Shown piece after piece: positions 59,527 to 62,426 of a stretch of DNA of 64,000 bases. Positions within the stretch are counted from its first letter, which is position 1; every line of letters begins with the position of its first letter. This stretch comes from Flavobacteriaceae bacterium (lineage in GTDB: Bacteria; Bacteroidota; Bacteroidia; Flavobacteriales; Flavobacteriaceae), in assembly GCA_023257625.1 (NCBI GenBank), contig JALRBW010000022.1, positions 1-64,000 of the forward strand, given 5' to 3'. Position numbers and translations under genes: made by a program. The notes under the pieces were generated by a model. The model worked only from the letters and a program-made list of their open reading frames with translations. It had not been told where the DNA came from and searched no databases.

Positions 59527-61431
59527 TTATTTCACTTCTTCAAAATCAACATCTTGCACATCGTCTCCTTTTGCAGCAGAAGCATTAGGCTCTGATTGTC
59601 CATCTTGTTTTCCTGTATTTCCGGACTCAGCTTGCGCTTTGTACATTTCTTCTGATGCATTTTTCCAAGCTTCATTAATAGCTTCAAGTGATTTATCAAT
59701 AGCTTCAATATCTTTAGTTGCATGAGCTTTTTTCAAATCTGCTAATGCTGTTTCAATAGGTGTTTTTTTATCTACTGATAGTTTGTCTCCAAATTCCTTT
59801 AATTGCTTCTCTGTTTGGAAAATCATCTGATCGGCACTATTCAATTTATCAACTTGTTCTTTTGCTTTTTTATCGGCATCAGCATTTGCTTCAGCTTCTT
59901 GTTTCATACGTTCAATTTCTTCTTCAGTCAAACCTGATGATGCTTCGATTCGAATGTCCTGAGATTTGTTTGTGGCTTTATCTAGAGCACTTACCTTAAT
60001 TATCCCATTGGCATCTATATCAAAGGTTACTTCAATTTGAGGCGTTCCTCTTGGGGCTGGAGGTATACCATCTAAATGAAACCGTCCGATTGTTTTATTA
60101 TCATTGGCCATTGAACGCTCACCTTGTAAAACATGAATTTCTACTGAAGGTTGACTATCTGCAGCGGTAGAAAATACTTGTGATTTTTTAGTTGGAATTG
60201 TAGTATTAGATTCAATTAAACGAGTCATAACCCCTCCCATTGTTTCAATTCCTAATGAGAGTGGTGTTACATCTAGTAAAAGAACATCTTTTACATCACC
60301 CGATAAAACTCCACCTTGAATGGCTGCTCCAACAGCAACTACTTCATCAGGATTTACTCCTTTTGAGGGTTTTTTCCCAAAGAATTTCTCTACCTCCTCT
60401 TGAATTACAGGAATACGTGTAGATCCACCTACTAAAATTATTTCATCGATATCTGATTTGGAAAGTCCCGCATCTTCTAAAGCTTTTTTAACTGGAGCCA
60501 TTGAGCGCTTGACTAACTCGTCTGCTAATTTTTCAAAATTTGCACGAGTTAAAGAGGTCACTAAGTGTTTAGGCCCTGTTTCAGTAGCAGTCACATAAGG
60601 CAAGTTAATTTCTGTTTGTGTGGAAGAAGACAATTCAATTTTAGCTTTTTCAGCAGCTTCTTTTAACCTTTGAAGTGCCATTGGATCCTTACGCAAGTCA
60701 ATTTCTTCATCTTTGATAAAAGTTTCAGCCAAAAAGTCAATAATTACTTGGTCAAAATCATCTCCACCTAAGTGGGTATCTCCATTGGTTGAAAGTACTT
60801 CAAAAACACCATCTCCCAACTCTAAAATTGAAATATCAAACGTACCACCCCCAAGATCGTAAACAGCTATTTTTTTGTCAGAACCACCTTTATCTAAACC
60901 ATAGGCCAGAGCAGCCGCAGTAGGCTCATTAATTATTCTTTGCACTTTTAATCCGGCAATTTCACCTGCTTCTTTTGTAGCTTGACGTTGTGAATCATTA
61001 AAATAGGCAGGTACTGTAATAACAGCTTCCGTAACATCTTGTCCTAGATAATCTTCTGCTGTTTTCTTCATTTTTTGAAGTGTCATTGCAGAAAGCTCCT
61101 GTGGACTATATAGGCGACCATCAATATCCACTCTGGGTGTATCATTATCTCCTTTTACTACTTTGTAAGCAACAGAGGATACTTCTTTTTTAGATTCAGA
61201 AAACTTATTCCCCATAAAGCGCTTAATAGATGCTATCGTTTTGGTGGGATTAGTCACTGCTTGCCGTTTGGCTGGGTCACCCACTTTTATTTCGCCTCCA
61301 TCTACAAATGCAATAACTGAGGGCGTAGTTCTTTTTCCTTCAGCATTGGGTATTACTACAGGCTCATTTCCTTCCATTACGGATACACATGAATTCGTAG
61401 TGCCTAAATCAATTCCAATTATTTTACTCAT
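59527..61431 (-). CDS. dnaK: Chaperone DnaK (Hsp70)
   Basis: ATP-driven chaperone working with DnaJ and GrpE. 634 residues: nucleotide-binding domain starting [14 protein letters not shown], with [17 protein letters not shown] and [11 protein letters not shown], then the substrate-binding domain ([13 protein letters not shown], about 390) and the lid and tail ending [11 protein letters not shown], whose acidic end is the EEVD-like form. No dnaJ or grpE is adjacent. It appears monocistronic, with a terminator downstream and a TGNCA-rich region upstream. Confidence 0.98.
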
Positions 61432-61450
61432 GATATTTTTAAATAGGTTG

Positions 61451-61505
61451 TGTCATAAACATTGTCAAGCATTATGCCAAAATAAAATTACTGACACCTT
61501 GGCAG
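61451..61505 (-). promoter_or_regulatory. Cluster of five TGNCA motifs upstream of dnaK, candidate heat-shock control region
   Basis: TGTCA at 61451 and 61463, TGCCA at 61475, TGACA at 61492 and TGGCA at 61500. The last two form the near-palindrome CTGACA-CCT-TGGCAG (61491-61505, one mismatched pair). The first three are spaced exactly 12 bases apart. The cluster lies 20-74 bases before the dnaK ATG. No CIRCE or sigma-32-type promoter is seen. Confidence 0.45.
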
Positions 61506-61589
61506 TTTAATTTATTTTATTCTAAAGTTTAGTTTTTTGAAAAATTAAACGCCCTTAAAATCCAAAATCATTGTGATAAAAAGAAATAC

Positions 61590-61597
61590 TATTTTTG
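61590..61597 (+). promoter_or_regulatory. Putative -7 promoter element of panB
   Basis: TATTTTTG matches TAnnTTTG, ten bases before the panB ATG (16 if translation starts at the third codon). A TTG at 61571-61573 is a possible -33 element, with spacing of only 16 bases. Confidence 0.45.
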
Positions 61598-61607
61598 ATA
61601 AAAAAAT

Positions 61608-62426
61608 ATGTCAATGTCTAAGAAAACATATTCTCGAATCACAACTAAAACACTTCAAGAGTTAAAAAAGCAGGGTGAAAAAATTGCTATGCTCACAGCA
61701 TATGATTTTACATTAGCTGGACTTGTAGATCAAGCAGGTGTAGATGTTATATTAGTTGGCGACTCAGCGTCAAACGTTATGGCAGGCCATGAAACTACAC
61801 TTCCCATTACACTTGATCAAATGATCTATCATGCGAGCAGCGTTGTTCGTGGTGTCAAGCGGGCATTAGTAGTTGTTGATTTACCCTTTGGAGCGTATCA
61901 AGCCGATTCTAAAGAAGCGTTGCGTTCTGCCATAAGAATTATGAAAGAATCAGGGGCACATGCTGTTAAACTGGAAGGTGGTTTTGAAGTAAAAGAATCT
62001 ATTGAGCGTATATTAAAAGCTGGAATTCCTGTTATGGGTCATTTAGGACTTACCCCTCAATCGATATACAAATTTGGAACTTATACTGTTCGAGCTAAAG
62101 AAAACCAAGAGGCGGAACAATTACTTTTTGATGTAAAAATGCTTGAATCTTTAGGGTGCTTTGGTATAGTACTTGAAAAAATTCCTGCTCAATTAGCTGA
62201 AAAAGCAGCTAACTCAGTAGAAATTCCTATAATTGGCATTGGAGCCGGTAAACATGTAGATGGTCAGGTTTTGGTTCTTCACGATATGCTGGGTATGAGT
62301 AAAGAATTTAGTCCCCGATTTCTTCGTCGTTATGCTGACTTACACAGTATTATTCATTCTGCTGTGGCTAATTATTCCTCAGATGTCAAAACCCACGATT
62401 TTCCTAATGCTAATGAACAATATTAA
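61608..62426 (+). CDS. panB: 3-methyl-2-oxobutanoate hydroxymethyltransferase
   Basis: First step of pantothenate synthesis: adds a hydroxymethyl group from methylene-THF to 2-oxoisovalerate. 272 residues with [48 protein letters not shown] and [20 protein letters not shown]. The start could be Met1 or Met3. Linked by function to coaBC and coaE, which are elsewhere in the window. One base is shared by neither gene, and rluA begins directly after the stop. Confidence 0.96.

Follow-up and report, generated by a model that had tools for sequence, protein, structure and literature searches.

A sigma-54 promoter and a helically phased TGNCA dyad in the probable control of dnaK and other heat-shock genes in Flavobacteriaceae

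Heat-shock control in Bacteroidota that lack HrcA is poorly described in the literature consulted, and the crowding of TGNCA pentamers before dnaK at this flavobacterial locus raises the question of what reads them. The initial annotation had counted five TGNCA in about 54 bases, and all five are indeed present (at 61451, 61463, 61475, 61492 and 61500), forming the densest cluster among the 181 TGNCA of the window, by which we mean the whole 64-kb stretch of DNA that was analysed. Among 100 first-order Markov sequences as long as the window, only one reached five TGNCA in any 55 bases, and the triple TGNCA-N7-TGNCA-N7-TGNCA occurs once in the window against 0.01 expected. The dnaK gene is encoded on the minus strand and starts with an ATG at 61431, so that the control region must be read in reverse; in the dnaK sense it reads ...aaacTGCCAaggTGTCAgtaattttatttTGGCAtaatgcTTGACaatgtttatgacacaacctatttaaaaatatcATG, and it comprises the following features:

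59527 to 61431, minus strand: dnaK (634 aa), the controlled gene, identified by NCBIfam DnaK equivalogs
61432 to 61607: intergenic region with the control elements, from dnaK (minus) to a divergent ORF at 61608 (plus), delimited by ORF positions
61451 to 61455: fifth TGNCA, close to the transcription start, which is predicted at about 61453; found at the same place in 1 of 80 regions
61464 to 61479, minus strand: sigma-54 -24/-12 promoter TGGCAT-AATGC-TTGAC, read from 61479 to 61464 and recognised by its conservation before dnaK
61492 to 61504: candidate activator dyad TGCCA-AGG-TGTCA (consensus TGACA-N3-TGTCA), recognised by conservation, symmetry and phasing

The five words are real, but they are split over different elements. 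The pentamer at 61475-61479 is the -24 box in the dnaK sense, and that at 61463-61467 overlaps the -12 box, a place at which 20 of 80 regions carry a TGNCA. The window itself is the sole carrier of the copy at 61451 (a pentamer lies at most three bases off in 3/80), which is probably incidental rather than conserved. The single phased repeat proposed by the initial annotation thus dissolves: the 12-base steps are exact as positions, yet their spacing is that of the -24 and -12 boxes in a sigma-54 promoter, the very promoter that holds two of the pentamers on the dnaK strand where no recognisable promoter had been seen. What endures of the proposed regulator site is the near-palindrome, that is, the TGNCA-N3-TGNCA dyad, without the remaining pentamers.

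The sigma-54 promoter before dnaK

The sigma-54 consensus is TGGCAC-N5-TTGC. Its GG-N10-G core is present at dnaK as TGGCAT-AATGC-TTGA (61479-61465), its GG occupying 61478-61477 and the -12 box having its G at 61466; the base after this final G is an A, here and in 69% of dnaK regions, and a -12 box that mostly reads TTGA instead of TTGC counts against a sigma-54 assignment. Conservation was assessed on 81 regions upstream of dnaK, none longer than 160 bases, namely the window and the best 80 of 582 dnaK relatives, most of which are titled Flavobacteriaceae, Flavobacteriales, Bacteroidia, Bacteroidetes or a flavobacterial genus. In this set TGGCA[CT]-N5-TTG is found in 80/81 regions (Markov control mean 0.09), the lone exception, L073, having AGGCAC at the box, and promoter and dyad stand together in 73/81 (control mean 0.005); these counts come from related sequences in which the patterns were first seen and do not represent independent events. 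Among 26 additional class genomes, drawn from 17 further families, 25 have a looser box at most 130 bases before dnaK; three of the 25 have C or G for the first T, and the twenty-sixth genome has TGGCAA. Taken by itself, TGGCAYN5TTG is uninformative in the window's own genome (30 matches, control 15), where dnaK and lon are the sole chaperone or protease genes behind its intergenic matches.

The housekeeping -7 box is TANNTTTG. It occurs in only 2 of the 81 dnaK regions (window plus best 80 of 582), against a control mean of 11.7, and given this rarity dnaK may be without a second promoter. A housekeeping promoter at dnaK was ruled out on the same count, the box being depleted rather than enriched. 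That the locus harbours nothing other than an ordinary housekeeping promoter or a chance cluster of TGNCA has in its favour that TGNCA-N3-TGNCA by itself falls short of significance in the window (2 against 0.79 expected); the depletion of TANNTTTG and the recurrence of the promoter element in 80/81 and 25/26 dnaK regions make its likelihood practically negligible.

The dyad and its helical phase

On its upstream side the -24 box is separated from the dyad by 12 bases, and the dyad has its centre near -44 in the usual sigma-54 numbering. It is found in 74 of the 81 dnaK regions (window plus best 80 of 582; control mean 0.28), with symmetric A/T at its free positions in 44 of the 74, so that the motif before dnaK holds in relatives. 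Exact dyads lie within 200 bases before dnaK in 7 of the 26 further genomes of the class and are absent from that stretch in the other 19; with the box in 25/26 and the exact dyad in 7/26, the promoter is the more widely conserved of the two. A separately measured groES set of 38 regions has the TGG[CT]A-N8-G box in 36 and the dyad in 28, and yields 27 distances; that the exact dyad was not found in 10 of these 38 regions, nor in the 19 dnaK regions just named, counts against a role of the dyad as the general activator site.

The distances between dyad and TGG are distributed in an orderly manner. In 73 dnaK regions (window plus best 80 of 582) they amount to 11-13 bases (52 regions), 33-34 (3), 43-44 (7) and 53-56 (11), and before groES to 22-23, 32-34, 42-44, 53, 64-65 and 75-76. 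The 19 distinct values of both sets fit one ladder with a best period of 10.6 over seven turns, the overall steps being 11-13, 22-23, 32-34, 42-44, 53-56, 64-65 and 75-76. An equal fit was attained by 0 of 20,000 random sets of 19 distances from 11-76, although neighbouring distances are not independent and the true odds are therefore less extreme. The 26-genome dnaK set was kept out of the ladder, and its seven dyads, at 12, 23, 63, 64, 65, 65 and 76 bases, all fall on it or one base off. Distances in whole turns mean that the dyad holds one helix face relative to the sigma-54 box, and a phase kept at changing distance is what an activator that touches the polymerase needs.

Classical enhancers of enhancer-binding ATPases (EBPs), the activators of sigma-54 promoters, lie at about -80 to -150. 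This feature, which is usual for EBPs and not strictly defining, is lacking at dnaK, where 52 of 73 dyads (window plus best 80 of 582) are 11-13 bases from TGG; other dyads in phase lie farther off, up to 56 bases at dnaK and up to 76 at groES. A dyad near -44 lies closer than is usual for an EBP and speaks against an activator of this type, and it is here that a repressor might be invoked: the dyad would serve an unnamed protein as an operator that overlaps the sigma-54 polymerase at its upstream edge, while the EBP would act without specific DNA or elsewhere. The commonest position does abut the polymerase, as such an operator should; however, the phase is unchanged in dyads that lie at 22-76 bases, too far off for a simple steric block, and one groES-linked EBP bearing an HTH is conserved throughout the class. 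We consider a repressor of this kind unlikely. For the EBP reading, it is the long linker of the candidate protein described below that may let the dyad sit so close.

Target genes and the candidate activator

TGNCA-N3-TGNCA is enriched in the window's own genome (1.93 Mb, 90.9% complete), where it occurs 22 times and the reversed control 8 times. Seven of the 22 dyads were judged intergenic, five of them outside any ORF of at least 80 aa, and the dnaK dyad and one hairpin dyad inside an ORF of only 89-90 aa, taken as spurious. The seven comprise those at groES-groEL, hsp20, htpG, grpE-dnaJ and dnaK, where the identities of the chaperone genes were confirmed and where each dyad is followed by GG-N10-G, plus two in hairpins.

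dnaK: dyad and GG-N10-G, TGGCATAATGCTTGA
groES: dyad and GG-N10-G, TGGCACGATTTATGA
grpE: dyad and GG-N10-G, TGGCAACACTTTTGT
hsp20: dyad and GG-N10-G, TGGTTCTTTTTTTGC
htpG: dyad and GG-N10-G, TGGTATTTTTTTTGA

The two hairpin dyads, at L114 and L119 (near 1501), belong to hairpins TGACACNGTGTCA followed by T runs and were set aside as terminators, and those at C71:5082 (in a gyrA-like ORF, named by eye) and C71:36058 (in lon) were not counted as regulatory, being inside coding sequence.

The initial annotation had named groES, clpB, hsp20, lon and htpG as genes before which to look for the motif, and the outcome is uneven across these genes. At groES, hsp20 and htpG the dyad is exact. At clpB there is an imperfect element, TGACA-tta-aGTCA-N12-TGGAAT-N5-TTGC, at the same distance as at dnaK and with TGGAATACGTTTTGC; it was spotted by eye with the pattern already known and counts only as probable, so that clpB is probably under the same control. 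At lon a promoter-like TGGCACAACTATTGT comes without a dyad, which counts against a control common to all of these genes. The lon box itself, TGGCACAACTATTG, at C71:36206-36193 on the minus strand (L146), is a good sigma-54-like box 110 bases before the gene.

The composite TGNCAN3TGNCA-N12-TGGYA was sought in 59 genomes of the order and gave 35 matches, spread over 26 genomes, where the control gave 2. Of 30 matches inspected as loci, 29 precede chaperone genes, with 13 before grpE, 8 before dnaK (one of them the window's own, from which the pattern was derived), 8 before htpG and 1 before secA. This last, L212 in genome G018, has the composite as dyad-N12-TGGCA and is the only one of the 30 at a gene other than dnaK, grpE or htpG. 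On the other side of the balance, the strict composite was not found in 33 of the 59 genomes, all seven reduced symbionts among them. The idea of a regulator site dedicated to heat shock in this lineage nevertheless finds support in a dyad that is enriched before other heat-shock genes and conserved before dnaK; the two outcomes that the initial annotation had named as refuting it did not occur.

As for the protein that reads the dyad, there is one rpoN copy in each of 21 genomes, the window's own included (PF04552, E 5.8e-52, with the RpoN box ARRTVAKYR). PF00158 has eight matches above cut-off in the own genome, two of them strong, and an HTH is found in only one of these two.

C17:24040-25305: candidate activator EBP, 422 aa, with AAA+ domain, GAFTGA loop, linker and Fis-type HTH
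C67:76852-78015 (G000; L144:6853-8016), minus strand: second EBP-like protein, 387 aa, with receiver and AAA+ domain (PF00158)

The C17 EBP matches PF00158 (E 2.8e-65) and PF02954, the Fis-type HTH (E 1.3e-12), and carries GESGVGKE (Walker A) and GAFTGA with a linker of about 110 residues; no N-terminal sensor domain was found in it. Its gene lies in the cluster miaB-EBP-lptE-like-x-secG-groES-groEL, in which miaB, lptE and secG were named by eye. Of 20 relatives, 19 contain a match at 56-95% identity (in two pieces in two of these), the exception being a genome that is 56% complete, and all 29 of the other class genomes compared contain one at 53-70%, listed over residues 5-313 only in one case; outside the class the best match stays at 43-53% in 21/21 genomes and stops before the HTH in 14. 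Across 49 aligned EBPs, LGISERTLYRK in the HTH is kept in 47 and the loop G[AS]FTGA likewise in 47 (29 GAFTGA, 18 GSFTGA, one GSFTSA and one incomplete protein without a loop match). Regions taken beside the EBP contain groES in 19 of 20 cases, and regions taken around groES contain the EBP within the fetched 7-10 kb in 9 of 15, the EBP lying outside the fetched stretch in the other six, which weakens the linkage argument. The linker includes a conserved stretch at residues of about 281-303, EREILYKVLFDMKSDLNDLKKLT, in which Pfam finds no domain; it is possibly a site for a regulator or chaperone, and a candidate for the signal-receiving part.

The second EBP-like protein shares its gene neighbourhood with dnaJ and grpE, adjoining an mscS-like gene (named by eye), and could on these grounds be proposed as the activator. 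Pfam, however, finds no DNA-binding domain in it, and its loop is GAFTTA instead of GAFTGA, so that it would make a poor reader of the dyad; we deem this reading highly improbable. Weaker matches similar in extent to this second protein, at about 40-44% identity to the C17 EBP, are found in many relatives. The C17 EBP, the sole HTH-bearing EBP found where the dyads need a reader, is for that reason the strong candidate for the regulator that the initial annotation had left unnamed, and we infer that it binds the dyad. Bigger genomes carry further EBPs, with seven matches in G016, and the completeness of the own genome stands at 90.9%; the link between EBP and dyad accordingly rests on exclusion and linkage.

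A different reader would be RprY, an OmpR-family response regulator, bound to the dyad as a repressor while some EBP elsewhere serves sigma-54. OmpR-type sites are usually tandem direct repeats, whereas the dyad is mostly inverted, as judged by A/T at its free positions (44/74; window plus best 80 of 582), and it keeps phase with the sigma-54 box over seven turns, as befits an activator touching the polymerase. In Porphyromonas gingivalis, EMSA and expression data place RprY at the dnaK, groES and clpB promoters, where it is a proposed repressor (PMC3646045, in the part available), and rprX/rprY are essential in Bacteroides fragilis (PMC4072883, likewise). The same account nonetheless reports no binding of RprY to the htpG promoter, yet htpG has the dyad here and accounts for 8 of the 30 composite loci; neither 'motif' nor 'consensus' occurs in the available main text of PMC3646045. 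On balance, RprY as reader of the dyad appears decidedly unlikely.

It thus seems to us very probable that sigma-54 (RpoN) together with the C17 EBP at the phased dyad controls the heat-shock genes, dnaK among them. Promoter, dyad, phasing, regulon, and the presence and linkage of the EBP gene in the class are computational observations; the mechanism built on them is a proposal. RNA polymerase with sigma-54 would sit on TGGCAT-N5-TTGAC before dnaK in a closed complex, and the C17 EBP, held on a fixed helix face by the TGNCA-N3-TGNCA dyad, would open this complex with ATP; the same pair would serve groESL, grpE-dnaJ, hsp20, htpG and probably clpB. Lacking a sensor domain, the EBP would probably be kept in check through its AAA+ domain or its conserved linker, either by free chaperone or by a partner. 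Sigma-32 and PspF/PspA are feedback loops, and such chaperone titration, a speculative means of heat sensing, would create a loop like theirs.

Reduced genomes, HrcA/CIRCE and comparison with known systems

Seven reduced genomes of one family, G087 with 345 kb and six of about 600 kb, all keep rpoN, the EBP and the -24/-12 box before dnaK (GGGCAT in G087), while no exact dyad was found in the 200 bases before dnaK in any of the seven. In G087 (L327:8005-11446) the EBP gene stands directly 5' of groES-groEL, and groES has a perfect TGACA-N3-TGTCA dyad and a TGGCA box, TGACAttaTGTCA-N23-TGGCATATTTTTGGA; in the two 600-kb genomes examined, dyads precede groES at 42 and 43 bases. Judged by their size and family, these genomes appear to be like those of flavobacterial insect symbionts such as Blattabacterium. 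The accessible part of PMC3971599 describes the retention of RpoN in Walczuchella, Uzinura and Blattabacterium as unusual among insect symbionts and offers a nitrogen-related role as a guess. Heat shock fits the reduced-genome data better than a nitrogen role as the reason for RpoN, and the present findings offer a possible answer to that published puzzle.

RpoH is not known from the phylum. HrcA/CIRCE, which controls groESL and dnaK in many bacteria, is ruled out as the regulator here, HrcA being found in 0 of 43 genomes of the class, the window's own included; the initial annotation had seen no CIRCE element. Outside the class HrcA is present in 15 of 21 genomes, and 30 listed groES loci, one per genome, show a CIRCE-like repeat (loose pattern) in 21. 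In seven of the nine without CIRCE there is, at -77 to -100, a sigma-54-like box, e.g. TGGTACGGTAGTTGC or TGGCACAGCCTTTGC (L151, L153, L154, L156, L158, L168 and L173), and the TGNCA dyad was found with none of these seven boxes. CIRCE-like repeats and boxes near -77 to -100 never occur together before the 30 outside-class groES; besides these, L152 (no CIRCE) has a weak box match at -183 and L178 (with CIRCE) one at -152. Where both could be compared, CIRCE is found in 9 of 10 HrcA-bearing genomes and a sigma-54 box in 4 of 5 HrcA-lacking ones.

Taken further, these data evoke a broader picture whose chances we regard as evenly balanced. The class would run its core heat shock through sigma-54 and one dedicated, sensor-less EBP at a helically phased dyad that can abut the polymerase; free chaperone would probably be the thermometer, and the arrangement would have replaced HrcA/CIRCE. 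If this pair supplies even the basal DnaK and GroESL, the system is probably essential, and this would explain the persistence of RpoN in flavobacterial insect symbionts of 0.3-0.6 Mb. The finding gives a candidate protein, a site, a regulon and a phasing rule, each of them testable.

Sigma-54 promoters before GroEL/ES, IbpA, GrpE, DnaJ and DnaK of Bacteroidota, peaking in Flavobacteriia, have already been predicted (Carrera-Reyna et al. 2025, PMC12316311, as far as available); the available part also cites a Blattabacterium paper for sigma-54-dependent grpE/groES. That regulon differs from ours in that no activator or enhancer is named for the chaperones in the available text, 'UAS' occurring 0 times in its main text. 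RpoN is not mentioned in the accessible text of PMC5592932, nor named in the accessible main text of PMC4072883, and among the open-access papers listed no earlier description of the activator, the dyad or the phasing was found. The activator, its phased site, the exchange with HrcA/CIRCE and the reason why small symbionts keep RpoN are apparently new.

As to known systems, the RprY regulon, in the part of its description available, shares the same chaperone promoters and differs in being that of a response regulator and proposed repressor. HrcA/CIRCE is alike in governing groESL and dnaK and unlike in that its regulator is missing from all 43 class genomes. PspF is alike in being an EBP without N-terminal regulatory domain that drives a stress regulon; its best-known targets are membrane-stress genes, the C17 EBP differs by its long linker before the HTH, and against the NCBIfam PspF equivalogs the latter reaches 261 bits (cut-off 443.55) and 214 bits (cut-off 529). 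With sigma-54/EBP systems of the NtrC/NifA/PspF class at large, the one proposed here shares -24/-12 boxes 12 bases apart, rpoN, an AAA+ EBP with a GAFTGA loop, a Fis HTH, a dyad site and dependence on the helix face, on which NtrC likewise depends. Unlike them, its targets are core cytosolic chaperones, its dnaK dyad usually lies at about -44 with a -12 box that is mostly TTGA, and its EBP is present in all 29 genomes of the class examined, reduced symbionts included.
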